Shown one piece after another: positions 23,801 to 45,269 of a stretch of DNA of 64,000 nt. The notes beneath the pieces are model-generated. The model made no database searches. It was not told the origin of the DNA and saw only the letters and a program-made list of their open reading frames with translations. Position 1 is the first letter of the stretch; every line of letters starts with the position of its first letter. A program made the position numbers and the translations under genes. Origin of the DNA: Verrucomicrobiia bacterium (lineage in GTDB: Bacteria > Verrucomicrobiota > Verrucomicrobiia > Limisphaerales > Pedosphaeraceae); assembly GCA_036268055.1 (NCBI GenBank), contig DATAUW010000013.1, positions 62,001-126,000 of the forward strand. Direction: 5' to 3'.

Positions 23801-26800
23801 CTCAGCCAGCGATTCGACTATTCGGCAAAGCTCATTCAATGTGCATATCACCTCGACGGAAGGCGTGGCGCTGGACTTGCCGGTGAATGTGACGGTGGTG
23901 CCGCTGGTGGCACAACTTTCCGTCGTCCCTTCGCAACTCAATTCGGCCATGCTTCGCGGCGCGCAAACTTCGGTTCAATTTGAAATCCTCAATCTTGGCG
24001 GCGCGGCTTCGGGGCCGTTGACCGTCAGCGCGCCCGCCGCGCCCTGGCTGACTATTGCGACGACCAATCCCCTGCCCTCGCTGCCGCCCGGCGGCTCCAA
24101 CATGGTCACGGTACTCTTGACGCCCACGACCGATCTCGCGCTCGGACCTTATACCGGTGCGCTCACAGTCAGCGGGAGCGGCATTGGCGTCACGGTGCCA
24201 TTCACCTTTAATTGCGTGTCCGACGGCCACGGAAATTTGCGCGTGCATTCGGTGGATGAATTGACTTTCTTCGCCACGAATTCGCCGCCGCTAACCAACG
24301 CGAGCGTCACGCTCATTGATCCGTTGAGCCGAAGCGTCGTTGCCACGGGCGTCACGGATGCTACCGGCCAATTCATCGCGTCGAATGTTATGGAAGGCGT
24401 TTATGAACTCGATGTCACGGCCACGCAGCATGCTTCATTCAAAGGCTCGGCGACGGTGACGGCGGGAACGACCACGGACGTTGAAACTTTCCTCTCGATG
24501 CAAACGGTGACTTACACGTGGACCGTTGTGCCGACCCAGATTCAGGACGTGACTCATATCACCGTGCAGGCAGAATTCGAGGCGAATGTTCCCGCGCCAG
24601 TGGTCGTGCCCACACCGGCATCGCTCGATCTCGCTTCATTGCAACAGCCGGGACAATTCATGGACGTGCCGCTGACGTTGGCCAACTATGGCTTGATCGC
24701 GGTCCACAGCGTCACAATCAACATCTCGGACAATCCGAATTACCAATTCGATTTACTGACGAAGAATATCGGCGACTTGCCCGCGCACGGCACGGTGACG
24801 GTTCCCATGCGCATCACGCGCGTCGCCAATACCGGCCTTCGTCCCACGGACGATGATTGCGAAGTGTCCATCAGCATCGGCTACCTTTTCCTTTGCGGCC
24901 AATATGATATCAGCACGGGCATTCCGATTCCAGTGTTCAATGTGACTGGCGATTGCGGCACGCCGACCGGCGGCGCTGGTGGCACCATTGTCTTCGTAGG
25001 ATGCGACGGCTGCACTGGCGGCCCAATCAATATTCCACCAGGACAATCGTCGCCTTCGACGTGCGATCAATGCCTGGCCAAGGCCATTGTCGAATGCGGC
25101 ATCGGCTATACCCCGGCTGGTTGCGCTTACGGTGGCTGGAGTTGCTTTGCGGGATTGGCCACGCAAGGTTTTAATGCAACCACGGGTGAGAATTGTGTCG
25201 TGCAAGGCGTCGGTTGCCTGGGACCAATCGGCAATACCGTCGCTTGTTTGTGGAGCATTCTCCGTTGCAAATGTGGCGGCGCGCTGTCCACCGTCCCGTC
25301 ATGTGTTTCGCATGCGTTGGGCGGCGGTTCGCGCCCGCTGGATCTGACGACGGGCGAAGGATTGTCGCCGGTGGATCCGATGGATGTTTATATTGCACGA
25401 AGTTATTCGAGCATTCAGATGATCCAGATGATCATCAATGACACGGATGGGCATTGGTTCGCGCCCGGTTCCGGTGGCGCGTTCGGCGCGTTTTTCAGTG
25501 CCTTCAATCAGGCCATACAATCTGACAGTCCCTCCGGCATCTTCATTTCGCCGGACGAGTTCAACAGCCTTATGGCGATGCAGGTTCCCAGCACGGTCAG
25601 CGGCGCGGACGTCGTGAACATGCTCAACCGCTGGAATCTCAGCATCAGTAACTGGGTGGCGGGCGTCTATTCACCGACGAATGTGGCTCCCGGTGGAAAC
25701 ACCAATTTTATTTCACTCTACGACATGTCCGCGCTGGCCTTGGACATCGGTCAGCAATATCAGGCGTCGCAAGCGGCGGGCTATGCCGATCCGGTGGCGG
25801 GATTTTTTGGCGCGCTGCAAAGCGCCGAATCCATGCTCGGCGGCGAAGGCACTTGCGCGAAAGTCGTGCTGCAACTTGACCAGGACGCCGTGCTGACGCG
25901 CGATGCTTTCAGCGCCACGCTGCAACTGAACAACAGCGGCGGCACGCCGTTGGAAAATGTGAAGGTCAATCTTGTCGTCCAAAACGCCGCCGGGCAGGAT
26001 GTGTCCAGCCTGTTCGGCATTGAAGCGCCTACGCTGACTGGCGAGTTGAATGCCGTGAACGGCACGGGCGAACTTCTGCCCAACAGCGCAGGCACGGCCC
26101 AGTGGACATTGATCCCAACGATTGACGCGGCGCCGCAAGCACCGACAAATTATTTCGTCAGCGGCTCGTTAAATTATACGCTCAATGGTGTCGCGGTCAG
26201 TTTGCCGCTTTCGCCCGCCTCCATTTCTGTGCAGCCGAATCCGCAGCTTTATGTGAAATATTTCCATCAACGTGATGTCTATGCGGATGATCCGACGACT
26301 CCGCAGATCGAGCCTTCGATCCCCTACTCGCTCGCAGTGATGGTTCAAAACCGCGGTTACGGCACGGCGTATGATTTCCATATCACCTCCGCGCAGCCGC
26401 AGATCGTGGATAACGAAAAAGGGTTGTTGGTGAACTTCCAGATCATCGGGGCGCAAGTTGGCAACCAGCCGGTATCGCCTTCGCTCACGGTGGATTTTGG
26501 CGACATTCTTCCGAACGACACCGTGGTTGGACGCTGGCTGTTGACTTCGACCTTGCAAGGTTTGTTCATCAATTACAGCGCGACGTTCGAGCATGTGGAC
26601 CCGCTGGGAAATCCTCGTCTCTCACTGATTGACGGTGTCGAGATTCACGAGATGAATCATCTTGTGCAGGCGGAAGGCGCGTTCGACGATGGCCTCCCGG
26701 ATTTTCTCGTCAACGACATTGCCGACTTCAATTATTTGCCCGACACACTTTATCTGAGCGATGGTCGCATCGAACCGGTGAGCGTCGTGGAGACAGCCAC

Positions 26801-28950: not shown

Positions 28951-31900
28951 TTAAAAACCCTCGGCACGCAAAGTGACGGTGTCCCAACCGGCAATTTTCA
29001 CAGCGCCATTTACCGGTCGCAGGGATTGTTCGCTGGCGTTGCTCAAAAAGATGGACTTCGGCTGCTCGCCCCAAATCAGCTTTGCCTGCTCAGGCTTGGC
29101 GGAGACATTGAAGAGGCGGATGATAAGAGCTTTGCCGTCGTCGCTTGGCTTCAGAACCGTGGCCAAAACACTGTCCGGTTCGATGCGCAATCGGGAAGGC
29201 TGGGGCTTATTGCCGGCGGCGGGAATTACGATCAAAGGCTCGGTGCTTTCGATGCCGAATCTCATGGCGGCGGCTGGATTATACCTCGCGTGCACGAAAA
29301 AAGCATAATTGAAACGGACCGGCCCTTCCTGCTCGGCCCGATAATTCGTATGCCAATGATTGTTCATCACCCAGGAATAGATTTTGGACGAGGGTTGGAT
29401 CGTTTTGAGATAGGCGTTGGGATTTCCCTGGCCGCGCGGCAGGTTGGCCGTCAATCCGCCGACTTCCACGAGTGGCGCATCCGCCGTGGCCCAGGTCACG
29501 CCATAGTCATCGTTGGAAATATCCACCCAGCGCTCGACCGAAAACCAGTTTTTGCACGCGCCGGGAAGCTGGTCTTTTTCAGTTTGCTCGATGGCGCCCG
29601 GGCTATTGATGCGCACAACTGGATTGGGCACGTTAAACTCAAATCCCAAATGCACGCCCTCCACCGCCCGTACCGCTTCCTTGTCCACCACGTCACTGAT
29701 TTCAACCCGGTCCAGGCCATCAACCAATCGCACTTCACGGGCGAGCCCGCGGCAGCCGGGAGCGGTGGATTCGACGAGCAATGACGCCACCAAGGGGCCG
29801 GATTCTTTGACGGTGATTTTTGAAGGGCCGTTGGGTTGGGCATCATTCACATTGCGGCCAGGCAAATAGAGGTAACGATTGATCTGGCCGCCGGCCAATT
29901 CAACATCCAGATCCGCCTGGCGCACACTGCTGATCGCGCCGGTTGCGGTGTCCAACTTCACCGTCAATGATGGCGTGGATAAAGTCGCACCTTCCGCGCG
30001 CGCCATCCCGGCCGGAGCTGTATCGGCGCCGATGACAAAACGCTTGGAACCAAATGGTGGCACGTCGCGGGCCAAAAAAACCAATTCACCGGTTGAAAGC
30101 CGTTGCGCCGGGACGGCTTGACCGTTCTCCTCTTTTACGCCGTCACCCTTTGTTTCCTTCGGCAGCGTCACCAAATCCGTGCGGAGCCACGAAGCGGTGT
30201 TGAAAACATCCACAGCGTCTTTCACCGCCGCGCCGCGCCGGGAGGATGCTTCCGCCAATAGTTTCAGCGATTCCTCGCTGGCATCCAAGGCATAACCTTG
30301 TTTGTAGCGCCATTCGTCCTTCACGCTTTGTTTATCGGGTTCGGAAATGCTATTGTAAGCGCCCCACGTATGCTCGCTCCACAGGACGACATTTTTCCAC
30401 GCGGCGCCAAAAGTAGTGGCGGGAAAAGGAGTAGGATCCAACAAAGCCCAAAGCGTTTCGGCCTGCACCAGGCGATCCGCGGAATGACGGTTCAGCGCGG
30501 TTTCGCTGGCGCTCGAAGGCGCGCCATCCTCCCAATATGGCGTGAGATCGCCCTGGTAGGTCGGCAGCGTGGCGCCATAACGCCGCTCGAAAGCGTGGAA
30601 CGCCTCGCTGGTAGTGGCAATGACAAGCTTAGGCCAGGCATGATCCGCGTTCCATTGGCGCACTTCGTCCATCGCAGCTTCGTCAGGACCGCCGTTGTCG
30701 CCGCGGGTCCAGCGCAATTGCACAAATTCGTAAGGGTAATGTTTTGTTTCAAGGTTTCGCAACAAGACCGGAAGCGCCTTCAGCAGCGAGGAGTAATGGT
30801 GGCCCATGGAATATCCCCCCTGGGAACCCCAATAAAGCACTTTCTCCTGCCCTGACTGGGAAAGCCAATAGAATGGCCGATTTTCCCACTGTTCGCGGAT
30901 GTAACCAATCCGGTCGCCTTCATTGGGCCCGGCTGAAAGATATTTTATTCCATTTTGCGCCATCGCCGGGACAACGCCCCAGGTCAAACCCGGGACATCG
31001 CTTAACATCATCGAGTCCATGGTCACGTCGCAGCGGCGGTTTAGTTCGGCGGCAAAGGTGAACTGTTCCAACAATTCTTCCGGGCGGCATAACCCGGTCA
31101 GCAGGTTGCCATACATGCCGTCAACGCCGATGTCACCATCATGAACCGCTTCCTCAAATTCCTTTTTTTGTTCGGGGGTGGCGGTCGCATAAAAATCGTC
31201 CGCGGGCAAAAAAACTTCCAGATTCCATTTAAAGCGGGAACCGGCCGGATAATCTTTTGTCTGGCGGATGAGTTCCAGTGCGCGTTTCACATTGCCGGCC
31301 TGTTTTTTGGCGATGTTGGGTTGCACGTCGGTGTAACCATTGTCATTGTGCGAGTGCATCAATAGATAAATTGTGAAATGCCCCACTGGCTCAAAGGTCA
31401 CCGACTGGCTGGCCAAAGTTTCCTCACCGGCAACGAGCGAGAAAACTGTTTTGGTTTCGCTAGTGACTTCGGGAGATAAAACCTTGATTTCCTGAAGCCC
31501 CTTGACCAGCGGTTGCCGGCTGATTTCCGTCCCACCCAAGCGCACTGACACTTCATGCTCCGGCCCGGCGTAAACCAGCGATGCTGTCATCGGTCGAAAA
31601 AGTTTTCCGTCCTGCTCAACCAACGCGTTTTCGATATCAAACGAAGCCAGCGATGCAAACCTGGTCACTGGGACGGACTCAACTTCCGCCGGTACTGTGA
31701 GCGACAAAGAATCGTAAAGCATCCAGCTTCCCGAAACGCTGGCGATGCTGATGATGTTGGTGGAGTTAAGCAGCGCGGCCGGAAATTCCACCTTGAATTG
31801 ATACGGCTTGCCGCTCGCAAAATCGCCCTCGATCGAGGCATCTCCTCCTCCCGGGGGCATCTGCCGCTCGAATGCGTGGCCATTAATTTCAATATGCAAT

Positions 31901-32250
31901 TTCGGCGGCGTCTGCGATTGCGTATCCAGCAAGTCCACGGTCAATTCGCAGTTGCCCGTTTGAACCGGCTGCCGGACGCCGAAAATCACTTTGAAACGAT
32001 GCCTGGAACTGCCGGCCCAGGCATCGTCAGGTCCCGGCTGCACGTATGGCCAATCACGTTTGGCGTCAGATGCGCCGACGATGAACAAGCCGTCCGCCTT
32101 GAATTGCCCATAGCCTTTTGGCGCCAGCGCGAATTCGGAGCCGTCGCGGTCCGGCTTGCCAATTTGCCAGAGTAAATGTGCGTCTGCGGCTGAAGTGCAC
32201 AACACCGGGAACGCCATGATTGCCAGAAAGTATTGAATCCATTTTTTCAT
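28951..32250 (-). CDS. Secreted GH38-family alpha-mannosidase
   Basis: 1099 residues. The signal peptide is about 1-24 (FLAIMAFPVLCTSAADA). An N-terminal beta-rich region (25-290) resembles a carbohydrate-binding sandwich. The GH38 catalytic domain starts at YLLMHSHNDNGYTDVQPNIA; His301 and Asp303 match the zinc ligands of the family's HxDxG motif, and Asp418 in MLSDVPGLTW is the likely nucleophile. The C-terminal third (about 690-1090) is the beta-sandwich typical of GH38 (EVRLVDGLDRVEISDVVDK). The enzyme would release mannose from alpha-mannosides outside the inner membrane. It lies 37 bases downstream of the CotH gene and probably shares its transcript. The divergent ROK kinase and mannose-6-phosphate isomerase fit use of the released mannose. 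Confidence 0.88.
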   Translation of the reverse strand: MKKWIQYFLAIMAFPVLCTSAADAHLLWQIGKPDRDGSEFALAPKGYGQFKADGLFIVGASDAKRDWPYVQPGPDDAWAGSSRHRFKVIFGVRQPVQTGNCELTVDLLDTQSQTPPKLHIEINGHAFERQMPPGGGDASIEGDFASGKPYQFKVEFPAALLNSTNIISIASVSGSWMLYDSLSLTVPAEVESVPVTRFASLASFDIENALVEQDGKLFRPMTASLVYAGPEHEVSVRLGGTEISRQPLVKGLQEIKVLSPEVTSETKTVFSLVAGEETLASQSVTFEPVGHFTIYLLMHSHNDNGYTDVQPNIAKKQAGNVKRALELIRQTKDYPAGSRFKWNLEVFLPADDFYATATPEQKKEFEEAVHDGDIGVDGMYGNLLTGLCRPEELLEQFTFAAELNRRCDVTMDSMMLSDVPGLTWGVVPAMAQNGIKYLSAGPNEGDRIGYIREQWENRPFYWLSQSGQEKVLYWGSQGGYSMGHHYSSLLKALPVLLRNLETKHYPYEFVQLRWTRGDNGGPDEAAMDEVRQWNADHAWPKLVIATTSEAFHAFERRYGATLPTYQGDLTPYWEDGAPSSASETALNRHSADRLVQAETLWALLDPTPFPATTFGAAWKNVVLWSEHTWGAYNSISEPDKQSVKDEWRYKQGYALDASEESLKLLAEASSRRGAAVKDAVDVFNTASWLRTDLVTLPKETKGDGVKEENGQAVPAQRLSTGELVFLARDVPPFGSKRFVIGADTAPAGMARAEGATLSTPSLTVKLDTATGAISSVRQADLDVELAGGQINRYLYLPGRNVNDAQPNGPSKITVKESGPLVASLLVESTAPGCRGLAREVRLVDGLDRVEISDVVDKEAVRAVEGVHLGFEFNVPNPVVRINSPGAIEQTEKDQLPGACKNWFSVERWVDISNDDYGVTWATADAPLVEVGGLTANLPRGQGNPNAYLKTIQPSSKIYSWVMNNHWHTNYRAEQEGPVRFNYAFFVHARYNPAAAMRFGIESTEPLIVIPAAGNKPQPSRLRIEPDSVLATVLKPSDDGKALIIRLFNVSAKPEQAKLIWGEQPKSIFLSNASEQSLRPVNGAVKIAGWDTVTLRAEGF

Positions 32251-32287: not shown

Positions 32288-35200
32288 TCAGGGATTTGTT
32301 TCCAAACGATAATAGCGGGAGGAATTGGTGGCCGGGTCGCGAAGGGTGACGGAGTTTGAAATCGCGGTAATGTTAGTCGCGGTTAACCAGACCGGATCGG
32401 CCAGATTGGTTTTGTATTGCAGAGTATAGCTGCGTTCCGGCTGGGCGGAGAAACTCAACCTAAGGCCACTGGCCAAGTTGAAACTTAATTGGGTGAACTG
32501 GGGCGAGTTGATGAAGTAACCGGGCGACCCGATGTCGCCATTCACCGCCGCCGGAAAAGCGCCACGGGTTCCAACGGTGCTTAGTTGGCCAAACATTTGC
32601 GTGTCGGGATTATAGCCAAAGGACACACCGCGAACTGCGGCTGGAAAGGCAGCCATGGCCACGGTATCCGTCACCGACGTGGCGGCGGCATTCCATAAAT
32701 AAATATTATCGCCGCTGGCACTGAAACCAATGGAGGGATAGGTGATGATTTGCAGATGGGCGGGAAGTTGGGCCAAGCCCCACCAGAGTTGGAATTGCGC
32801 CGCCGTCATGTCTTCAGCCAGCACAATGGATTCGCTCGGAGCGATACTGACCGCATTCGTGATGACATCTCCGTTAGTCAGGGAATCATGGCTGTCATCA
32901 AAGCGATATCCCTGCAAGTTTACCGCGAAGGCGCCGAGGTTGCTTAACTCCCACCAATCTTCGTGATCAAGAGTGGAATTATTTGTCCCCTTGGACTCGC
33001 TGGACATCGCCTCGGTTATAACCAGGTTTGGCTTGATCGTCACATTGAGCGTGAATGATGCGGTCGCGCTTCCATAGTTATTGCTGGCCACAATCGAATA
33101 AACTCCCGTTTGATTTGTTTGTACGTTTGGCAGCGTCAATAGCGAATTGGTTTGACCGGCCAAACTAACATTGTTGAATTCCCAATGGTAACCGGGAGCC
33201 GGGCTGCCGGCTGCTTGAATGGTGAAGGTTGGGCTTTGGCCGATGTAGGCATCCAAACTCGCCGGACTTTGAGTTATCGTTGGCGCGGTTGCGGGAACAA
33301 AAACGGCCTGAACAAGTCCCGACCACGGACTGTTTAAAGGCGGATTATTCGTGCCGGTCAGATTTTGATGCGCCGGATTGAAAGCGCGTGCCATGACCGT
33401 GGTATTTGTAGCGAGCGGAATCGGCCCGGTATAAGCCAGTGCTCCGGGCCGGATCGTTCCGCCAGAAATGCGGGGATCAAGTCCATTAGTCGTGTAATAA
33501 ATGCTGCCGCCACCCGGTGAAGTCATGACCAGGGAAAATCCCGGCGCGAAACCGCCGCCGCTGCGGTTGAGCAGCGGGCGCGCCAGAAAATTGGTATCCA
33601 TGAAATTCAAACGGTCGGCGTACCATTTCTTCAAAAAGCTCACTTCGCCTTGATAGGTTCCGGGAAAATTATAGGTATAGTTGTAGATCGTCACCGTTCC
33701 TGACCGGGGCGTGGTCAAGGATGGCCAGCGCGCTACTTCGCGGGGTTGTTCGTGTTGTATCTGGACCACCAGCGAATCAATGACCGAATAGATATGATTG
33801 GTCGAGAGCGGCCCAGTCCTTAAATCCTGGTAGCGATCTATCCAGGCTTGCCAAAAATCAATGTCGGTGAACATCCGCCCCCACCAACTGTAATTAAAAA
33901 AATCTGTCCCGAAATCCGGCGGCGGCGACAGCGAACTCCAATAGAGCGGGCTGAAATCGCGTCCATCGGTCGAACCTTGGGAACGGTCAAAATCCCAAAT
34001 CGGCCCAAAGAAAATTTTGTCATTCCGGTCTTTATAAAAAAACGCGCTCAATCGCAACGCATCCACATTGAATGCCATCACATTGAGGATGTGATGATCA
34101 AGAGCCGACGGCACATCCACATAGGCCGGATAACCGGTGAGCAAATTAGTATAGGAAGAACTGATCAAGGCGTCGCCGAAGGAATCCATGTAAGTCTGGA
34201 GATATTGCTGCTGCGGAATGCGCTCCGGCATCGTGATATTATCCTCGCTCGGTTTGTCATAAACAATCAACTGGCCGGCGGAATTAAATCCCGATTCGCC
34301 TTGGTCCAGGCGGTCAATCTTCATGAGGTAACCGCCGGTCACATTTGTGCCGGTATTATCGTTGGGATGCAGTTGATCCACGTTATGAATTTTGTTGATG
34401 TTCACCCGATTTTGGTCCCAGGTGATTTTCTCCTCCAAAACATAGATACCGTTATAATTTGCGGCGCTCAGGCTGCCGCCCGTGGTATTCAGATATACTT
34501 CGCACATGCGGGTGCGGGGCGCATATCGGCCGATATCAGTGCTCAACTGGTAGATGAGCGGATTGTGAATCAAAACCGGTTCGAAAGGATCAGGGGCATA
34601 CAAAATAAAATCGGATTGTGCCGGCAATCCCAGCGGCGTGTAATTCGCGTCATTGTTCAAATCGTCAACAAAATCAACGGAAAATGCCTGTTTGGGAAAA
34701 GCCGCCGTGGATGAGCCGTGCACCTCGATCAACGCGCGCGTGTTGAAAGTCGGCGGATTGGTCAGTGACGTGACCCCATTACTCGGCTCATAGACAGCAA
34801 TGTTGGCAAATTGATTTCCGCCCTGCGGGACGCTGCCGGCGGCAAAATTATAAATGACAATCGCGGGCAAATCCGAATTGGTGTTCACCAGATCGCCCGC
34901 CAGCAAAAGATAGGTTTCACTGTGCGGAGCGCCGGGCATCAATCCTGTCGCAAACGCGCGCGCACGAACCTGCACTGAATTGTTTATCGTGATGGGCTGG
35001 GTGTAAAGCTGTGAAGCGACTGTCGGCGGTGTGCCATCGAGCGTGTAATAAATCGCCGCGTTTGTAACGGAATCGGTGATCTGTAATTGAAACGAATTCG
35101 TGAACGTGCCGCCGGCTTGGGAGAACACCACTGCGGGCGCGGCATTGGAGCCCGTGGTTGAGTTCGCATTCGCCGGAGTGGGATTGGCGAAGTAACCGGT

Positions 35201-36187
35201 GGCATTTACGCTGATCGCATCGCGGCCGTAAGAAACATCGGCAGTTTGCGCGGGATAATGGTCGAACGCCGAAACGAGGTTGGTGTTTGCATCCACCAGT
35301 GCCAGATAACCGCCGCCCACGAGGAGTTCAAAATTCGTGTGCAGTTCCGCTGTAATATTGGTTCGATTTTTGCCGGAAGCAAAAATGACGATGTAATCGT
35401 TGGCCGGCACGGTGACATTGGGAATCTGCCATTGGGTGAGATTATTGGAGCTGCTGGTTAGAAACCAGTTGCCGAGGCTTAAATCATTTGGGGTGGGGTT
35501 AAAAATTTCCACCCAACCAGAGTAATCGCCATCCACATCGGTCACCGTGTGCTCATTGTCGGCCATGAATTCCGAAATGCCCAGCGTGGTCCAGAGTTCC
35601 GCCGCCGGAGGGACGGTGTTTGTGTTGGGAGTTGTGGAACCCAGGCGCAATTCGCGCCCACCCGGATTGCCATCGTCAACGGCCTGATCCAATTTCAATA
35701 GAAAGTATCGGCCCGCGATAAGATTGGTCATCAAATATTCGTTCCAAATGGCGCTTTGCGCGTTGGTAATGGTCACGACGGTATTGGGGGGAGTGCCGGG
35801 ATCCATCGCGGCGAAGGGAGTGCTGCCGGTCCAAACACTGATCTGGGAAACTTTATCCGCCGAGGCAATGCCGCCGCTGCGCTGGGCGTAAAAAAGCGAG
35901 CCGACGTTGGTGTATACCTGATCAAGCGAAAACGCAACGTAACTCGTGCCACCGCCATTTTTTGCAAATTCCGCGCTATCATTCAACTGGGAGTTGAGCG
36001 GGAGCCCAGTGACGTTGAAATTAAAAAGGTTGGCCGCAGTATAGGTTGAATCGTAATGGCTGCTATCGCTCACCGCGGAATAGAGTCCAGGCGCCGGGCC
36101 AATCACATACAACGCATCCGCCGGCCGGGCACAAAAAAGCATGGCGCCGAAGAAGATGACGGCAATGCGCACCCCCTTGCGTTCCAT
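32288..36187 (-). CDS. Secreted CotH-kinase-like protein with lamin-tail and chitobiase-like domains
   Basis: 1299 residues from ATG 36187, chosen because a signal peptide follows directly (VIFFGAMLFCARPADA); the frame is open to an ATG at 36289, but that lies on the operator. Approximate order: unrecognised N-terminal domain shared with the 38688-41216 protein (26-184), lamin-tail domain (206-312), chitobiase-like C-terminal domain (352-392), CotH domain (476-742) with NYNGIYVLEEKI, YLMKIDRLDQGESG and FGPIWDFDRSQG, a second chitobiase-like domain (882-936), Ig-like domain (966-1053), a second lamin-tail domain (1056-1183) and a YTLQYKTNL...YYRLE tail. CotH domains are atypical kinases in spore coats; in secreted bacterial proteins their role is unclear. 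It probably forms a transcript with the GH38 gene. Confidence 0.85.
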   Translation of the reverse strand: MERKGVRIAVIFFGAMLFCARPADALYVIGPAPGLYSAVSDSSHYDSTYTAANLFNFNVTGLPLNSQLNDSAEFAKNGGGTSYVAFSLDQVYTNVGSLFYAQRSGGIASADKVSQISVWTGSTPFAAMDPGTPPNTVVTITNAQSAIWNEYLMTNLIAGRYFLLKLDQAVDDGNPGGRELRLGSTTPNTNTVPPAAELWTTLGISEFMADNEHTVTDVDGDYSGWVEIFNPTPNDLSLGNWFLTSSSNNLTQWQIPNVTVPANDYIVIFASGKNRTNITAELHTNFELLVGGGYLALVDANTNLVSAFDHYPAQTADVSYGRDAISVNATGYFANPTPANANSTTGSNAAPAVVFSQAGGTFTNSFQLQITDSVTNAAIYYTLDGTPPTVASQLYTQPITINNSVQVRARAFATGLMPGAPHSETYLLLAGDLVNTNSDLPAIVIYNFAAGSVPQGGNQFANIAVYEPSNGVTSLTNPPTFNTRALIEVHGSSTAAFPKQAFSVDFVDDLNNDANYTPLGLPAQSDFILYAPDPFEPVLIHNPLIYQLSTDIGRYAPRTRMCEVYLNTTGGSLSAANYNGIYVLEEKITWDQNRVNINKIHNVDQLHPNDNTGTNVTGGYLMKIDRLDQGESGFNSAGQLIVYDKPSEDNITMPERIPQQQYLQTYMDSFGDALISSSYTNLLTGYPAYVDVPSALDHHILNVMAFNVDALRLSAFFYKDRNDKIFFGPIWDFDRSQGSTDGRDFSPLYWSSLSPPPDFGTDFFNYSWWGRMFTDIDFWQAWIDRYQDLRTGPLSTNHIYSVIDSLVVQIQHEQPREVARWPSLTTPRSGTVTIYNYTYNFPGTYQGEVSFLKKWYADRLNFMDTNFLARPLLNRSGGGFAPGFSLVMTSPGGGSIYYTTNGLDPRISGGTIRPGALAYTGPIPLATNTTVMARAFNPAHQNLTGTNNPPLNSPWSGLVQAVFVPATAPTITQSPASLDAYIGQSPTFTIQAAGSPAPGYHWEFNNVSLAGQTNSLLTLPNVQTNQTGVYSIVASNNYGSATASFTLNVTIKPNLVITEAMSSESKGTNNSTLDHEDWWELSNLGAFAVNLQGYRFDDSHDSLTNGDVITNAVSIAPSESIVLAEDMTAAQFQLWWGLAQLPAHLQIITYPSIGFSASGDNIYLWNAAATSVTDTVAMAAFPAAVRGVSFGYNPDTQMFGQLSTVGTRGAFPAAVNGDIGSPGYFINSPQFTQLSFNLASGLRLSFSAQPERSYTLQYKTNLADPVWLTATNITAISNSVTLRDPATNSSRYYRLETNP

Positions 36188-36271: not shown

Positions 36272-36288
36272 TTGTATAAACATATACA
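36272..36288 (-). promoter_or_regulatory. Candidate GntR operator upstream of the CotH-GH38 unit
   Basis: TTGTATAAACATATACA contains the HutC-type core GTnTAnAC. On the minus strand it reads TATATGTTTATACAA, nearly the same as the site at 41464-41478 and related to the operator in the gntR promoter. It lies 85 bases before the chosen CotH start; TATATG could be the -10 box. Confidence 0.5.
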
Positions 36289-36348: not shown

Positions 36349-37731
36349 TTAAACGGTAGAAACCGCCGCGCGTTTCCATTCGCTTTCGATTTCTTCTAGG
36401 CTTTTGCCCTTGGTTTCCTTGATCATTGTCAGCACGAAAAAAAAGGAAAACAGGCTCACCGCGCCGTAAATCCAGAAGGTCGCCGCCGGGCCAATCATCG
36501 GGTCATCATTAAGCATCGGAAACGTCTGGGCCACGAGGTAGCACGAACTCCAAATCGCCAGTGTCGCGACCGACATGGCTCGCGCCCGTAATTTGCCGGG
36601 AAATATTTCCGAGCAGATGATCCAGGGAATCGGTCCCATGGCCATGGCAAACGCCGCAATGAATACCAGTACCCACAGCAACAGCGCCAGCTCGTGATGT
36701 CCGGAATGGAACATCCAGCCGACCATCCCCAGCGCAACGGCCTGCACGGCGGTGCCAATCAGCAACAAAGGCCGGCGACCGGCTCGATCTATAAAAAAAA
36801 TCGCCAGGAATGTGAACAGCAAATTGATGAGTCCAATCCAGATGGAAGAAGCAAAAGCCGAATTCCTAGCCAACCCGGCGGATTCGAAAATTCGTGAGGA
36901 GTAATACATGATGGCGTTGATCCCGCAGAATTGGGAGCAAGCCATCAATAGGACGGCAATGGCCAGCGGCCGGGAATAAGTTCGCGAAAACAATTCGGAA
37001 AGTTTTCCCGTCTCGCTCGAAATCGCGGATTTGATCGCAGTCAACTCGGTTTCGGCATAGGCGGCGTCACCCACGTGTGACAGCACCTGGCGAGCTTCTT
37101 GTTCGCGGCCTTTTTGCGCCAGCCAGCGCGGGCTTTCCGGAACTAGAAAAAGCAGGCCGAAGAAAATAATGGCGGGAACGGCTTCCATTCCGAGCATCCA
37201 ACGCCAGCCCGAGGCGATGTTCCAGGCTTCGTTCCCCATCCCCTGGACGACCTTGTTGATAAACAAAGTCAGGAAAATACCGGAGACGATTCCCAACTGA
37301 AATAGTGAGCCAAGCCGCCCACGCCATTTTTCCGGGGCGATCTCGGCGATATATACCGGGCATATCATGGACGACGAGCCGATGCCGAGCCCACTGATGA
37401 AGCGGGCGGTCAGAAATTGTTCAAAAGTGCGCGGCACAGCGGACAACAAACCGCTGATGGCAAAGAGCGCGGCGCAGGCCAGCAGCAGTTTTTTTCGCCC
37501 GAACCGGTCGCTGAGGAAACCGGCGCACATGGCTCCCGGGATGCAGCCAAGAATCGCGCTGGCCCCGGCAAAACCTTCCTGGCTGGGCGAAAGATGCATG
37601 TTTGCCTTGAGATAGGAGTTGGCCCCGTTGATGACGGCCGTATCGTATCCAAAGAGGAAACCACCGATGGCCGTGACGGCCGTGACGAACGCCACAAACC
37701 AAATCGAATTGGTCGTCGTCGTGGTGTTCAT
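36349..37731 (-). CDS. Sugar-porter family MFS transporter
   Basis: 460 residues with 12 predicted membrane helices. Sugar-porter signatures are visible: GYDTAVINGA in helix 1, SDRFGRKKLLL after helix 2, PESPRWLAQKGREQEA after helix 6, DRAGRRPLLLIG in the second half and a C-terminal PETKG-like sequence, MIKETKGKSLEEIE. Members import monosaccharides by proton symport. In this cluster, between secreted mannoside-degrading genes and a kinase/isomerase pair, mannose is the obvious candidate substrate, though sequence alone cannot decide. It is on the minus strand between the prepilin-like gene and the CotH gene. Confidence 0.9.
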   Translation of the reverse strand: MNTTTTTNSIWFVAFVTAVTAIGGFLFGYDTAVINGANSYLKANMHLSPSQEGFAGASAILGCIPGAMCAGFLSDRFGRKKLLLACAALFAISGLLSAVPRTFEQFLTARFISGLGIGSSSMICPVYIAEIAPEKWRGRLGSLFQLGIVSGIFLTLFINKVVQGMGNEAWNIASGWRWMLGMEAVPAIIFFGLLFLVPESPRWLAQKGREQEARQVLSHVGDAAYAETELTAIKSAISSETGKLSELFSRTYSRPLAIAVLLMACSQFCGINAIMYYSSRIFESAGLARNSAFASSIWIGLINLLFTFLAIFFIDRAGRRPLLLIGTAVQAVALGMVGWMFHSGHHELALLLWVLVFIAAFAMAMGPIPWIICSEIFPGKLRARAMSVATLAIWSSCYLVAQTFPMLNDDPMIGPAATFWIYGAVSLFSFFFVLTMIKETKGKSLEEIESEWKRAAVSTV

Positions 37732-37857: not shown

Positions 37858-38613
37858 TCACCAGAAGAGATAATTTTGATCGGGGACCGTGTTCATGTTG
37901 GCCGCCAGGTCGGCGGGAAATTTATAGAACTCGACGTGCGCGTCTCCGAACAAAACGGCTTCGTTTCGCTGGCCGCTGTTGTTATGCCAGATTGCGCCCT
38001 GGTTATAAGGATCACGATTGCCCTGCCAGCACCAATCGCCAAGAATAAGTTTCGTCGAAGGCCTCTGCGCCACGGTCGTAGCCTTGATCGGGGCGGAAGC
38101 GGCGAAATACTTGCCATCACAGCCCGTCACTTTTGCGACTCGGAAAAGGTCCCCTGACCATTCAACCAAATAACTGTTCCCCCACCCGTCCCAGCAGGTT
38201 TTTGGACCACCAGACGAGACAGGATTGATCGGATCTCCCTTGTCGGCCGGACAGTGAAACACATTTACACTGCCGAGATACTTATTGAGGGGCCGACTGG
38301 CTTCCGAGTCCTGCCCCCGATAGTAACTCGCGGGTCCTGCTATGTAAGGATTAGTGGGGCACTGGCCCCCGAGCGTCGCCCAACCGGAATGCACCGGAAA
38401 GGATTCACTGTTATCGGTGGCGTACATATTGCAAGCCAGACCAATTTGATGTTGGTTGTTGATACATTGAGTGCGCAGGCCGGCGGCTTTGGCCCGCGCC
38501 AACGCCGGCAGCAATAACCCGGCCAAAATGGCAATGATGGCGATGACGACCAGTAGTTCGATCAGGGTAAAACCATTCCCCGCTTCGCTATGTTTAATCG
38601 TTGTGCTTTTCAT
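37858..38613 (-). CDS. Prepilin-like protein with N-terminal methylation helix
   Basis: 251 residues from ATG 38613, which has GAAAGG upstream on the minus strand and leads straight into the prepilin signal; the frame is open further upstream, but those residues do not resemble a signal. The type IV pilin/pseudopilin motif is [20 protein letters not shown], with cleavage expected after the Gly. The C-terminal domain contains the pattern [12 protein letters not shown] typical of the abundant DUF1559-like prepilins of Planctomycetes and Verrucomicrobia (DGHV motif). It probably sits in the inner membrane or in a pseudopilus. Its cluster mates suggest a link to secretion or capture of carbohydrate-active proteins, but that is inference. 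Confidence 0.9.
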
Positions 38614-38687: not shown

Positions 38688-41216
38688 TTAGTGGATGCGA
38701 TAAAACATTTGCGAATTGGTCGGAGTAAACGGCACGCCGCTGGTAATGCCGCTGGACGGCGCGAAAGGTCCGGAAACATTTGTTGATTGCTGCAATATCC
38801 CGGATGGCCACGTCAGCGTCAGTTTGCCGCCAGATTGAGAGATGCCCAACTGCACCGGAGGGGTGGTCGGGACGCCCAAACGGAATTCCTTGCCGCCGAT
38901 ATTGTTGTTGGGGGCGGCGGTATCCACTGGATTTTGCTTCAGTTCCAGCAGAAAATATTGCCCGGTGATGGTCGCGGGCAATAAGTAGCGATCCAGCGTG
39001 GCTCCGGAGGGATCCGGGACGGCAACTTCTGCATCGGGAGGAGTTCCCGGAGGGTTTAACGGGTCAAATGGAGTCGTCGCACTGGCCCACAAGCTGATGA
39101 AGTCAATTTTATCGGCGTTGGGATCACTGCCGCTGCGTTGAGCGTAATAGACCGCATTCACCGCATAGGATTTATCAACCTGAAAGCTCAGATAAGCCGG
39201 CCCGGGGCCGGAGATAGCCCAATCATTCCCGCCAAGGATTGTACCCAGCGGAACGCCGGTCAGATCGCTGTCAAACAAGTTGGTAGAGGTGTAGCTAAAG
39301 TTGGAATCGGGATACTCGCCGCTTTCAACCAGATTCGTATAGAGCGATCCCGTGGGGCTCAGCGGGCGGATCGAATAATTTGCCACGGCCACGTTGATGG
39401 CGGCGCTGGTAACGGAATTGACCTGGTTGGAGGCGAGCACGTAATAATTCCCCGCGTCGCTCAACACGGCATTGGTGGTAACGGTAAATGAGGCGTTCGT
39501 GGCGCCGGAAACGACCGCATTGTTCTTGTACCACTGGAATACCGGGTTCAATCCGCTCACCGTCACGGAGAGAGTTATGGCGTCGCCCAAAACCGCGGAA
39601 TCATTTGTCGTTTGGCTTAGAATTTGCACGGTGGGATTGATTCCCACGGCGGTCGCATAGAGCGCATTGATGTCAGACGAGGAGAGAGCGCGATTAAAAA
39701 ACGCCACGTCATCAATGCGTCCGTTGAACGTCCGGGCGGATTCGCCCACATCAGTATCCAGCCCAATCGAAGTCGGCCCCGCGAAGGTCTGACCGGCTTG
39801 TTTAAAATTATCCACTGCCGAAAGCACCACACCATTGCTCGACCCCATATAGAGAGTGGTGAAGTTAGTCGTATAGACCAGGGCCACCAGCGTCCATTGG
39901 TTGGCGGGCAGAACCAAACCGGAATTAAAGGCATAACGGTTGCCATTCCATTGATAGCCCAGTTGGGTGCCGTCGCCGGAGCAAATCATTCCGGCAGCAG
40001 TCCCCGACCCGCGGCAAAAAACGATGCCAGTGTAAGGCTGTTGCGCGCCGGCTGAATCATCGGGATAAATCCAGGCCACGATGGACACGGCGTTCGTAGT
40101 GCTGGCGTTCGTTAGATTGAGCGGCGGCAAGGTCACCGCCGAGTTGATATCAAAGCCGGTGGTTTGCACCGCGGTATTGCTTGACGAAAAACCGGGGAAC
40201 GATGTGGGTTGCGGCCCGGCCACTCCCAGAAGGGAATCCCCGCCATAGACGCCATTGTAACTTCCTTCCAGGTCAAGAGCGGCCGGCCCGAAGGACTCAT
40301 TGAGCTGGTAGTAGGCCACCGGTTTTTTGGAAACCATCAATGCTTCCACGGCTTCAGTCGGCGCGGCGAGGACGCTTAGATTGGCCGAGGCAGTAATGGA
40401 GCCGAAGTTATTTGAAACTGTAAGCGTGTAAGCGCCGGCGTCACTTAGCGCCGCATTGGAAATGACGAGGTTGCCCGTGTTCGCCCCTGAAATGGAACCG
40501 CCATTCGTCAAAACCGTACTTCCATGAGTCCACGAATAAAACAATGGGGCAGTTCCGATCGAGACAACCCCGCTAAAAAACGCGGAGCCGCCGACGTACA
40601 CGCTTTTATCCGCAAGCGGAGTTATCAGAGCGCCCGGTGGCTGCGAAAGGTTTGCGCCAAAACGGAACTCCCGTCCACCGGGATTGCCGTTCAAGGTGCT
40701 TTGATGAAACTTCACTAAAAAATATTGGCCAGAAATAATATTGGTCAGGGGATATTCCGACCAAATGGCGCCAGAACTGTTCGTGACCGTCACCACGGCA
40801 TTAGGCGCGGTGCCCGGATCCGCAGCCGTAAATGGCGTGCTCACGCTGCTCCAAACGTCAATCTCCTGGATCTTATCCGCATTGGGATCGTTACCTCCCC
40901 GCTGGGCATAAAAGACTGAGGCAATATTAGTGTAATTTTGATCCAGTTGAAACGCGACAAAACCATCAGCCACGCTCGCCGTGGCATATTCATTGCCATC
41001 GCCCAGGGTGGCTCCCACACTGACCCCGGTCAAATTCTCATTGAACAGATTAGCGCTGGAATATGAATCGTTATAATGGGTGTTATCAGAAATGCCGGAA
41101 TAAATAGTGCCATCCGGGCCGATGAGATCGAGGGCTTTTGCCCGCGCGACAATGAACAGGGAAAACAGTGCCAGCAAGGCGGCCTGGCGCATCCAGCGTG
41201 GAAAAGATAGTTTCAT
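38688..41216 (-). CDS. Secreted LamG/Ig-like protein with two copies of an unrecognised domain
   Basis: 842 residues from ATG 41216, chosen because the signal peptide starts there ([20 protein letters not shown]). Order: unrecognised domain copy 1 (29-188), Ig-like domain (193-283), LamG/concanavalin-like domain (298-525, with [12 protein letters not shown] and [19 protein letters not shown]), Ig-like domain (528-612), domain copy 2 (616-782) and a short tail with LQQSTNV...MFYRIH (790-842). The repeated domain carries YAQRxGxDPNADKI and GQYFL; it looks like a galactose-binding jelly roll. LamG domains bind glycans or proteins. The gene is the first of the minus-strand series and has an operator-like site about 250 bases upstream. 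Confidence 0.85.
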
Positions 41217-41848
41217 AGGTTTCGTTTTTTGGGTTGATATCGCTAACAATTGGCTTCCTTAAAGGATTTAGCGCGCGCATTCGCGCACATTCGCGCGAGC
41301 GCCAAATCTATAACCGAACCGCCGCCATCCGACGCCAAGGCCCGTGCCTGCTCCCGCCTGTTTTATTTCAGCGGGGTTCGCATGATCAGGTTGCGCAAAT
41401 TTCATATCGGAATACTTGCCGGGACCGCGGCCCACCCAAGGCGAACAACATTTAACGAGTGAATTGTTTAAACATATATATATTGATACTTACAAAATCA
41501 AGCTTTTTCTAAAAATTTATTGGCACCGCTTTTCCGGCCCCGGAATCCGGCGGGTTTTTTGCGAGACCATTTGCCTCCCTGGACAGTGGCGGACCGCGCC
41601 TCGGGAAAGATCAGGATTCAACGCCTGCCCTGCCCGTCACGAAATGAAATGCGCGATATTCTCAAGCGGGCCGCGCGCTTCTTCATCCCGCCAAGAGCTT
41701 GAAAATGGCGCAAAGATCCATCCTCCCCCGGTATTTTTATTTTTACCGGAGGGTCTCGGACGCGTTTTTGCCGCGTGGCCCAGGTTGCCTTTCCATCTCA
41801 ATTTTTTTCGGATTGACAATTTTTATTTAATTGTCTATACAATTAAAT
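41217..41848. other. Divergent intergenic region of the mannoside island
   Basis: 632 bases between the divergent transcription units. Apart from the two operator/promoter sites listed separately, it contains an inverted repeat CCGGTA/TACCGG around an AT-rich loop near 41730-41755. No convincing gene is visible. Confidence 0.55.
41464..41501 (-). promoter_or_regulatory. Promoter with overlapping GntR-type operator for the minus-strand series
   Basis: On the minus strand TTGATT (41496-41501) and TATATG (41473-41478) are 17 bases apart. The second box runs into GTTTAAAC, a HutC-type GTnTAnAC core (TTGTTTAAACAT on the plus strand, 41464-41475). The arrangement puts the operator over the start site, as expected for repression. 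It would drive the LamG/Ig gene at 41216. Confidence 0.5.
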
Positions 41849-41849
41849 A
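41813..41849 (+). promoter_or_regulatory. gntR promoter with 26-bp palindromic operator
   Basis: TTGACA (41813-41818), a 17-base spacer and TATACA (41836-41841) form a near-consensus promoter. Positions 41824-41849 are a palindrome with a single mismatched pair, centred on TTGTCTATACAA, a GntR/HutC GTnTAnAC core. The operator covers the -10 box, and the start codon ATG begins at 41849, so transcription would start almost at the start codon. Confidence 0.7.
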
Positions 41850-42583
41850 TGCTTTCGATTGACCACAAAAGTGCCTTGCCTCTGCGCGCGCAGGTTGAAG
41901 CTTTGCTGCGCGACCTGGTTCGCCAAGCCAATTATCAAAGAGGCGATTTGCTGCCGGATGAAATTACTCTCGCGGCGCAATTAGGCGTCAGCCGCGGCAC
42001 GGTCCGGTCCGGCATCAGCAAGTTGGTTTTTGAGGGCATCCTCGAACGGAAGGCCGGCGTCGGCACGCGCGCTTCCGGCCAGCAGCCTGAATCGGGAATA
42101 AAAGAGTGGCGCAGCTTTACACGCGAAATGGCCTCCAAAGGGATCACCGTGCAGAATTTCAGCATCAAATATCAGCAAGCGAAAGCGACCGAAGCCGCCG
42201 CCCAAGCCCTGCAACTGGACGAGGGCACGCCGATCTTGCGCCTGGAGCGGGTGCGCGGATGGAACGATCAGCCCGTTCTCCATTCGACCTCGTGGTTCCA
42301 TCCCCGGCTTAAATTATCCGGTGATGAGCAGATCAACCTGCCCCTTTACGAAATGCTGGAAAAGCACACAGGAGTGCGCCCGCACCATGCCAGGGAGGAA
42401 TTTCTGGCAGTCAGCGCCGAAACGCGGATCGCCCGGTTGCTTCGGGTGAACCGCGGCACACCGCTTTTGCTTCGCCGCCACACCGTTTATGATCCGGGAA
42501 ACCGGCCGTTTGAATTTGCGGAAGTCTGCTACGTCAGTTCTCGCTTCACGCTTTCGCTGGATATGCGCCGCAGCGAACCATGA
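41849..42583 (+). CDS. GntR-family (HutC subgroup) transcriptional regulator
   Basis: 244 residues from ATG 41849; an upstream TTG at 41831 in frame lies within the operator and is rejected. The winged-helix domain is at about 10-75, with LPDEITLAAQLGVSRGTVRS as the recognition region and GILERKAGVGTRA as the wing. The UTRA ligand domain fills the rest (RLERVRGWNDQPVLHSTSWF, YEMLEKHTGVRPHHA, LLRRHTVYDPGNRPFEFAEV), typical of sugar-phosphate-sensing HutC members. It is coupled by ATGA to a ROK kinase and an isomerase. The effector is probably a mannose-related sugar phosphate, and the targets probably the genes next to the three operator-like sites. Confidence 0.9.
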   Translation: MLSIDHKSALPLRAQVEALLRDLVRQANYQRGDLLPDEITLAAQLGVSRGTVRSGISKLVFEGILERKAGVGTRASGQQPESGIKEWRSFTREMASKGITVQNFSIKYQQAKATEAAAQALQLDEGTPILRLERVRGWNDQPVLHSTSWFHPRLKLSGDEQINLPLYEMLEKHTGVRPHHAREEFLAVSAETRIARLLRVNRGTPLLLRRHTVYDPGNRPFEFAEVCYVSSRFTLSLDMRRSEP

Positions 42584-43521
42584 AAACGATGGCCGTTGAT
42601 TTCGGCGGGCGGCGCATCAAACTTGGCTTGATTTGCAATGGAACAGTTTTGGCGCAAAAAATCATTGCCGCCCAGGCTGAGAAACCTTTGCGAGACCGCC
42701 TTGATTCATTGGCCGACGCGCTTCACCAACTCTGCGCCGATGCGGGAACAACGGCTCGCGAGTGCGATGGGCTGGCGATCGCGTATCCCAGCATTATTGA
42801 CACGGCCAACGCGCGTATCCTGGATCACTTTGGCAAATTCAGCGACGGCAGTTCGTTTAATTTTCGCGAATGGGCTGAACGCACTTTTGGATTGCCCCTG
42901 GCAATGGACAATGATGCCCGCATGGCACTCATCGGCGAATGGCGTTATGGAGAATGGAACGACTGCAATGATATCGTGATGATCACCCTTGGCACCGGGA
43001 TCGGCGTTTCGGCGGTGCTGGGAGGCCAAGTGATGCGCGGGGCGCATGGCCAGGCCGGAATTCTCGGCGGACATATTACCGTCAATCACCTTGGCCGCGC
43101 TTGCATTTGCGGAAATATCGGCTGTGCGGAAGCGGAGGCCTCCACTTCCGTGCTGGAAAAAAAGTTCCGGGAAAAGGCAACGCACGCGAACATAATTCCC
43201 GAAGAATCACTGGTGGATTATGCGGCGGTTTTTCGTCTCGCGTCCGAGGGTGATCCGCGGGCCAAGGCCCTGGCCGACCATAGCGTCCAGGTTTGGTCCG
43301 CATTGGCGGTGAGTTTGATCCATGTATTCGATCCGGAATTATTGATTATGGGCGGCGGAGTCATGGGCAGCGCGGACCTCATTTTGCCGCAGATCCAGGA
43401 TTACGTAAATCGCCACGCCCACACGCCGTGGGGCAAAGTGACCGTGGCCGCTTCGTCTCTGGGCGAAAAGGCCGCCCTGCTGGCCGGTGAATGGTTGTTG
43501 GAGGATTACCTGGCGGCATGA
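42580..43521 (+). CDS. ROK-family sugar kinase
   Basis: 313 residues. The N-terminal phosphate-binding segment is AVDFGGRRIKLGL. The ROK zinc site is visible: GGHITV, followed by CICGNIGCAE, the family's CxCGxxGCxE pattern. The active-site region is AMDNDARMALIGEW, with the catalytic Asp expected in NDA, and the second phosphate motif is VMITLGTGIGVSAVLGG. ROK kinases phosphorylate glucose, fructose, mannose or amino sugars. Coupling to a mannose-6-phosphate isomerase suggests mannose (or fructose) kinase activity. The gene overlaps gntR and the next gene by ATGA. Confidence 0.9.
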   Translation: MKTMAVDFGGRRIKLGLICNGTVLAQKIIAAQAEKPLRDRLDSLADALHQLCADAGTTARECDGLAIAYPSIIDTANARILDHFGKFSDGSSFNFREWAERTFGLPLAMDNDARMALIGEWRYGEWNDCNDIVMITLGTGIGVSAVLGGQVMRGAHGQAGILGGHITVNHLGRACICGNIGCAEAEASTSVLEKKFREKATHANIIPEESLVDYAAVFRLASEGDPRAKALADHSVQVWSALAVSLIHVFDPELLIMGGGVMGSADLILPQIQDYVNRHAHTPWGKVTVAASSLGEKAALLAGEWLLEDYLAA

Positions 43522-45269
43522 AATCCAATTACGATAAATTCCCGGTGGTGGCGGTACCGGGCGCCGCAGGCGAATGCGTCGCCGGATGGGACGGCTGCAC
43601 CGAACGATTGCGGCAAGCGATTACCCAAAGATCCGCGCGCCGGACGGTTTTGTTGATTGATTGTTACCCCGGCGTGAATGAAACGGAGTTGCTGGAGCGC
43701 TTGGCAATTTCTTTGTCCGCCAAATTGGTTTTGCGCGCCAGCGAGGCCATGTTGTCTCACTCTACGATAGAATCGCTGGTTGCCCCGTTTCTTCGCGAAA
43801 ATGAACCGGTTTTCGGTTTTCTAGCCGACCTGACTCTCGAAAAATTTTTCGACAGTGAAAAAATTCAAGCGTTGAAACGGCAAGTGGCGCAAACGACCGA
43901 GGGGTTGATATTAATCGTTGGCTGCGGCGCCCGCCTGCTCGCCGACGGTGACATCTTGGTTTACGCAGATTTGGCGCGCTGGGAGATCCAACAGCGTTTT
44001 CGCCGGAATGAAATCGGCAATTTAGGTGTTCCAAACCGGCTTGAGCCAGCCAGCATAAAGTATCGCCGCGCGTTTTTTGTGGATTGGCGCGTGGCGGATC
44101 GTTGGAAGCGCGACCTGATCGGCGCGTGCGACTTCATGCTGGATACCAACCAACCGTCCCAGCCGAAACTTGCCAGCGGGAAAGCCGTGCGGAGCGGATT
44201 GCGACACGCTGTGACGAGGCCATTTCGCGTGGTGCCTTTTTTTGACCCGGCACCGTGGGGCGGCCAATGGATGAAACAAAAATTTGACCTCGATCCAAGC
44301 AATCCAAACTATGGCTGGTGCTTCGACTGCGTGCCGGAGGAGAACAGCCTTTTGCTTGGCTTTGACAACATCCATTTTGAAACTCCCGCGCTTAATTTGG
44401 TTTTTGATCAGCCACTGGGTTTATTGGGCGCGGCGGTTTACGCGCGATTCGGCGCAGAATTTCCCATTCGCTTTGATTTGCTGGATACTATGGGCGGCGG
44501 AAATCTTTCGTTTCAGGTGCATCCGCTGGCTGAATATATCCAAAAACATTTTGGCATGCCCTACACGCAGGACGAAAGCTACTACCTCCTCGACGCCGGT
44601 TCGAATGCAAAAGTCTATCTCGGCCTTGGCAGCGGGATTGATTCGCCATCCATGTTGCGCGATCTAAAGGCGGCCCAAAATGGCCAATGCCCCTTCCCAG
44701 TCGAGAAATATGCACAATCGTGGCCCGCCAAAAAGCATGATCATTATTTGATTCCGGCGGGGACCGTGCATTGTTCCGGCGCGAATTCCATGGTGTTGGA
44801 GATCAGCGCCACGCCCTATATTTTCACGTTTAAAATGTGGGACTGGGGCCGCATGGGCCTGGATGGCCACCCCCGTCCGATTCACTTGCAGCATGGTATT
44901 GACAACATTAATTGGGAGCGCACCCCACTTTGGGTGAAGCGCAATTTGATTAATCACATCCGGCCTTTGGCGTCGGGCGAAGGCTGGCGTGAGGAAGCCA
45001 CCGGACTGCAGGAAGGACACTTCATTGAAACGCGGCGGCATTGGTTTGACCGAAAGGTAACCCACGATACGAAAGGCACTGTAAATGTTCTCAACCTGGT
45101 GCAGGGAGACGAAGCAGTGGTGGAAAGTCCCGATAACGCTTTTGCTCCTTTCACAGTTCACTATGCTGAAACTTTCATTGTGCCCGCCCAGGTGGGACCC
45201 TATTCCATCCGGCCGCAGCATGAATCGGCTACCTCAAATTATGCGACTATGAAGGCATTTGTGCGGTGA
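43518..45269 (+). CDS. Class I mannose-6-phosphate isomerase with degenerate P-loop N-terminal domain
   Basis: 583 residues from ATG 43518, which overlaps the ROK stop codon (ATGA). Residues about 1-235 look like a nucleoside-kinase-like fold: TVLLIDCYPGVNETELLERL sits where a Walker A would be but lacks GKT. Residues about 240-583 are a class I phosphomannose isomerase: RVVPFFDPAPWGG, then the metal site Gln333 and His335 (NLSFQVHPLAE), Glu353 (QDESYYLL) and His418 (AGTVHCSGANSMVLEIS). The enzyme converts mannose-6-phosphate to fructose-6-phosphate. This long two-domain form is a known variant; the role of the N-terminal part is unknown to me. Confidence 0.88.
   Translation: MKSNYDKFPVVAVPGAAGECVAGWDGCTERLRQAITQRSARRTVLLIDCYPGVNETELLERLAISLSAKLVLRASEAMLSHSTIESLVAPFLRENEPVFGFLADLTLEKFFDSEKIQALKRQVAQTTEGLILIVGCGARLLADGDILVYADLARWEIQQRFRRNEIGNLGVPNRLEPASIKYRRAFFVDWRVADRWKRDLIGACDFMLDTNQPSQPKLASGKAVRSGLRHAVTRPFRVVPFFDPAPWGGQWMKQKFDLDPSNPNYGWCFDCVPEENSLLLGFDNIHFETPALNLVFDQPLGLLGAAVYARFGAEFPIRFDLLDTMGGGNLSFQVHPLAEYIQKHFGMPYTQDESYYLLDAGSNAKVYLGLGSGIDSPSMLRDLKAAQNGQCPFPVEKYAQSWPAKKHDHYLIPAGTVHCSGANSMVLEISATPYIFTFKMWDWGRMGLDGHPRPIHLQHGIDNINWERTPLWVKRNLINHIRPLASGEGWREEATGLQEGHFIETRRHWFDRKVTHDTKGTVNVLNLVQGDEAVVESPDNAFAPFTVHYAETFIVPAQVGPYSIRPQHESATSNYATMKAFVR

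Follow-up and report, generated by a model that had tools for sequence, protein, structure and literature searches.

The window (the whole 64-kb stretch of DNA that we analysed, from a Verrucomicrobiia bacterium) contains two minus-strand genes that together encode three copies of a domain of about 160 residues. The LamG/Ig protein has the layout signal peptide, domain, Ig, Laminin_G_3, Ig, domain and short C-terminal module; the CotH protein has the layout signal peptide, domain, LTD, CHB_HEX_C_1, CotH kinase and Ig. Copies 1 and 3 begin right behind N-termini that read as signal peptides and would thus form the N-termini of the mature proteins; the same signal-like N-termini suggest that both proteins are secreted.

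38688..41216 (-): LamG/Ig gene, ATG at 41216
40647..41132 (-): domain copy 1, N-terminus of the mature LamG/Ig protein, residues 29-190
38865..39377 (-): domain copy 2, C-terminal part of the LamG/Ig protein, residues 614-784
32288..36187 (-): CotH gene, ATG at 36187
35630..36112 (-): domain copy 3, N-terminus of the mature CotH protein, residues 26-186

A sequence-only reading of this DNA had already described three copies in two proteins, and its residue numbers lie within two of ours; the interval to which it assigned them, 38688-41216, covers the LamG/Ig gene with its two copies and leaves the third outside. Compared pairwise over the whole domain with BLAST, the copies are 52.5%, 43% and 39% identical (E 7e-62, 2e-43 and 1e-33), far beyond chance. 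The conserved columns of the domain are NLF, YAQR, ADK, W.S.TPF, DPGT.P, GQYFL and GG.E.RLG, and in our alignment the motifs quoted previously coincide with them. Genome searches returned these three copies and no others.

The final 57 residues of the LamG/Ig protein (38691-38861, minus strand), ending in FYRI, have counterparts at ten other genomic places (E < 0.01), most of them within large open frames. This C-terminal module has no Pfam name, and modelling the protein's last 59 residues from a single sequence gave a poor result (pLDDT 56); the module is perhaps a sorting or anchoring module.

Fold and family of the domain

Direct Pfam and NCBIfam scans gave no match over any of the three copies, and PF00754 (F5/8 type C), run against the whole genome at E<=10, left all three unmatched; by their own score the window copies fall below its curated cut-off. 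A three-sequence profile (A1) did not on its own reach F5/8C, and direct PDB sequence matches were weak (E 0.06-0.15), the best of them (E 0.06) being the CBM32 of CpGH84C/NagJ. The connection appears through intermediates. The family profile finds the copies of another genome, G556, at E 1e-27 to 1e-33, and the two G556 proteins score 43.1 and 42.0 bits against PF00754, for which the cut-off is 28.2. PF00754 is also touched independently by three of ten close members (best E 0.003), and profile-profile comparison of the family with nine ordinary F5/8C domains of its own genome gave a probability of 85.5 and E 5.8e-6. The N-terminal D motif, W and GRY motif of PF00754 align with the domain, which differs in having an insertion between the D motif and the W. 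The intermediates and the profile-profile comparison indicate homology to F5/8 type C; because the window copies miss the curated cut-off, we describe the domain as a divergent relative of PF00754 and do not file it as an ordinary member. The earlier description of the domain as unrecognised, to be given up on a clear match to an existing family, holds for the direct Pfam and NCBIfam scans but not beyond them, since a match to such a family was found, if only indirectly, through the G556 proteins.

An AlphaFold2 model of copy 1, built from a 15-sequence alignment, reached pLDDT 94.2 and pTM 0.90. Its top 50 PDB matches (Foldseek, VIA-align) are mostly CBM32/discoidin-type domains, and protein binders (neuropilin and an APC/C subunit) occur among its structural matches. 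The best match is the galactose-binding CBM32 of Micromonospora viridifaciens sialidase (2bzd; Z 15.6, 2.6 Å, 138 of 162 residues); the N-terminal CBM32 of the GH92 alpha-1,2-mannosidase NnGH92 (7nsn; Z 14.8, identity 7%) and the CBM32 of C. perfringens CpGH84C/NagJ (2j1a, 2v5d; Z 13.3) have the same fold. The model predicts a discoidin beta-sandwich across the whole domain and with it membership of the galactose-binding-domain-like superfamily, so that the guess of a galactose-binding jelly roll, made from sequence, proved right on structure prediction and structural comparison. The fold assignment is well supported, and the domain is neither a new fold nor a new superfamily. The lack of a direct Pfam or NCBIfam match and an identity of only ~10% to the matched structures might be read as signs of a genuinely new domain family whose discoidin likeness is mere common jelly-roll shape. 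We consider this highly improbable, as it is already contradicted by the sequence link to PF00754 through G556, by the profile match and by a Z of 15 over the whole domain in a list that discoidin-type families dominate.

The three-copy profile found the domain in three of 146 relatives' genomes, its own included, and a ten-copy profile gave strong matches in four of the 320 genomes of the order, namely the window's genome, G066, G141 and G241 (the last on L010, a contig of a Verrucomicrobiia MAG). A scan of genome contigs yielded one relative, which was this L010 contig. A phylum-wide sample added G556, whose four copies are spread over two tandem proteins, and G444, with one copy (E 1e-14). 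Two candidate members, G158 and G598, matched weakly and were rejected, both being ordinary F5/8C proteins; the G329 match to the domain profile is weak. Viral contigs held no relative of the domain and a literature search on it found nothing. We conclude that it is a rare divergent branch with close copies in at least four of 320 genomes and a few distant relatives elsewhere in the phylum, these counts being lower bounds since not every first-look candidate was scored.

The putative ligand pocket

Galactose is contacted in CpCBM32 by E641, F656, H658, R690, N695, W661 and F757, and CBM32 domains coordinate calcium through a Thr, by its backbone as well as its side chain, and in most cases through a Glu close to the C-terminus (PMC12926856). 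The arginine of YAQR, R78, is invariant and aligns with the YAPR arginine of CpCBM32 (2j1a), which, judged by its spacing to Asn, is probably R690. The positions of His658, Asn695 and Phe757 are not conserved as such in the sequence alignment, N150 sitting five residues before the Glu at the expected place of F757. We dropped an assignment of the position-49 aromatic to the stacking Trp661 of CpCBM32, as profile comparison places this first aromatic on the structural Trp of F5/8C domains, which it may represent instead. The canonical galactose site (R690, H658, N695, W661, F757) is not found in the aligned sequences: of its Arg, His, Asn and second aromatic, only the Arg is kept. E155 is invariant in 15/15 copies, and nine of the ten close copies have T or S at position 35; both resemble residues of CBM32 calcium sites, and the domain may bind calcium.

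Set beside the 2bzd, 2j1a and 2v5d CBM32s, the domain has in common with them the arginine in the YAxR strand and the C-terminal Glu of a putative calcium site. It differs in identity (~12%), in the absence of the aligned galactose-site His, Asn and second aromatic, in a family-specific loop of its own (W.S.TPF..DPGT.P) and in being carried by non-enzymatic proteins. The pocket is likely to be in use, with something other than plain galactose as its probable ligand, because the canonical His, Asn and second aromatic are missing. A mannoside ligand is possible by analogy with the CBM32 of the NnGH92 alpha-mannosidase, whose pocket holds a mannose-type ligand (PMC10167667); that CBM32 is part of the enzyme, whereas the window domain lies in separate secreted proteins.

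Gene neighbourhood and promoter box

The two domain genes lie among genes of sugar catabolism, and three places in the 64-kb window, upstream of CotH, LamG/Ig and gntR, carry a palindromic box, TTGTNTANACA.

28951..32250 (-): GH38-type alpha-mannosidase with an N-terminal CBM-like domain
36272..36282 (+): candidate GntR operator TTGTATAAACA, 85 bp upstream of the CotH ATG
36349..37731 (-): MFS sugar porter
37858..38613 (-): pseudopilin-like gene (N_methyl and DUF1559), 75 bases after the LamG/Ig gene
41464..41474 (+): candidate GntR operator TTGTTTAAACA, 248 bp upstream of the LamG/Ig ATG
41831..41842 (+): candidate GntR operator TTGTCTATACAA, immediately ahead of gntR and within a perfect inverted repeat of 11 nt
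41849..42583 (+): GntR/UTRA regulator, with the start placed at MLSIDHK
42580..43521 (+): ROK sugar kinase
43491..45269 (+): protein whose second half matches mannose-6-phosphate isomerase (PDB 1qwr, E 5e-9)

The last of these gave nothing over its full length in Pfam and NCBIfam; its N-terminal half of ~240 residues has no match, and its second half is named by the PDB search only. A 3656-residue open frame at 17895-28865 directly adjoins the cluster.

Domain proteins are clustered with GntR, ROK kinase, mannose-6-phosphate isomerase, sugar transporter and alpha-mannosidases in three genomes, G066 and G141 having the same neighbourhood as the window when genes are identified by reading translations. 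Both carry further GH38-like and GH92-like enzymes, with Pfam confirming GH92 in G066 and a sulfatase in G141. No CotH gene was seen in G141, where the domain protein has a different layout and also bears legume-lectin domains. In G241 the LamG/Ig and pseudopilin pair adjoins GH35 and GH36-type galactosidase genes, and the 20 kb read there contained neither the mannoside genes nor the promoter box.

In each of the four genomes the gene after the domain-bearing Ig gene encodes a pseudopilin. A verrucomicrobial alginate study reported a PulG-like pseudopilin, with 67 homologues, that is induced together with degradation genes (PMC13274419), and because of that induction on alginate a role of the pseudopilin in substrate use is plausible by analogy. 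The window's genome has 22 DUF1559-type pseudopilin genes.

Shuffles of the window gave a mean of 0.18 matches to TTGTNTANACA, and 0/100 reached 4. The 5.1-Mb genome holds the box at seven places, three of them in the window; its nine strand-matches compare with 11 for a reversed control pattern, so the clustering is the striking part and not the genome total. The window count is partly circular, because the pattern was read off these same promoters before counting. Stronger evidence is that the box recurs at corresponding promoters in three genomes: in G066 it lies ahead of the MFS, gntR and LamG/Ig genes, and in G141 ahead of the domain gene and gntR. We infer that GntR controls the domain genes through the box.

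Proposed role of the domain

The three copies, the predicted fold, the PF00754 homology through intermediates, the conserved gene cluster and the recurring promoter box form the firm part of this account. The fold, the mannoside cluster in three genomes and the shared promoter box also lend support to the glycan-binding role guessed from sequence; sugar binding and its specificity are predicted. The domain is probably a divergent discoidin/CBM32-like glycan-capture module of secreted or surface proteins, working in an alpha-mannoside system under GntR/UTRA control. As proposed, this galactose-binding-domain-like (discoidin/F5-8 type C, CBM32-like) module would capture glycans on the LamG/Ig protein, which has a copy at either end, and on the CotH protein, which has one. 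The GntR/UTRA regulator probably controls production of both, and would also govern the ROK kinase, the mannose-6-phosphate isomerase and, judging by position, sugar import and the alpha-mannosidases. With the module keeping mannoside-bearing glycans close to the cell, GH38/GH92 enzymes would free mannose, which the cell would then import. The substrate utilised would be an alpha-mannoside, in one genome perhaps a galactoside; the place of the domain beside galactosidases in one of four genomes (G241) counts against the mannoside reading. A more specific version, in which a rare verrucomicrobial CBM family with a non-canonical alpha-mannoside site occupies both termini of a surface protein linked to the pseudopilin and, as a glycan-capture device of this phylum, fills the role of Bacteroidetes surface glycan-binding proteins, is possible but doubtful.

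Discoidin folds also bind protein, lipid or nothing. The fold might then serve as an adhesion or assembly module that binds a partner (the pseudopilin, an S-layer or envelope component, or another copy) and not free sugar. The bracketing of the LamG/Ig protein by copies, the adjoining pseudopilin gene in 4/4 genomes and the absent canonical galactose residues would fit such a module, as would the protein binders neuropilin and the APC/C subunit among discoidin relatives; a strict mannose binder, moreover, would not explain why the domain lies near both mannosidase and galactosidase genes. However, the arginine is invariant at the CBM32 ligand position, cluster or box ties the domain to sugar catabolism, and the G556 members are tandem-domain proteins with no evident pseudopilin alongside. 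We therefore regard an adhesion or assembly role as unlikely, and glycan capture as the preferred reading.

The superfamily itself is well known; the new elements are a divergent branch of it whose pocket is non-canonical, and the connection of that branch with a probable mannoside regulon. A domain missed by annotation thereby gains a name and a testable function, and through the shared promoter box two unannotated secreted proteins and a pseudopilin become linked with the use of mannosides in Verrucomicrobia. Glycan capture by such proteins would offer these bacteria a possible means of retaining glycans at their surface.

The same palindrome is also found at locus L066 (G000:C37:49000-65000), between another GntR-type regulator and a pseudopilin gene that adjoins the gene for a 1621-residue secreted repeat protein, forming a parallel unit of regulator, pseudopilin and secreted protein.
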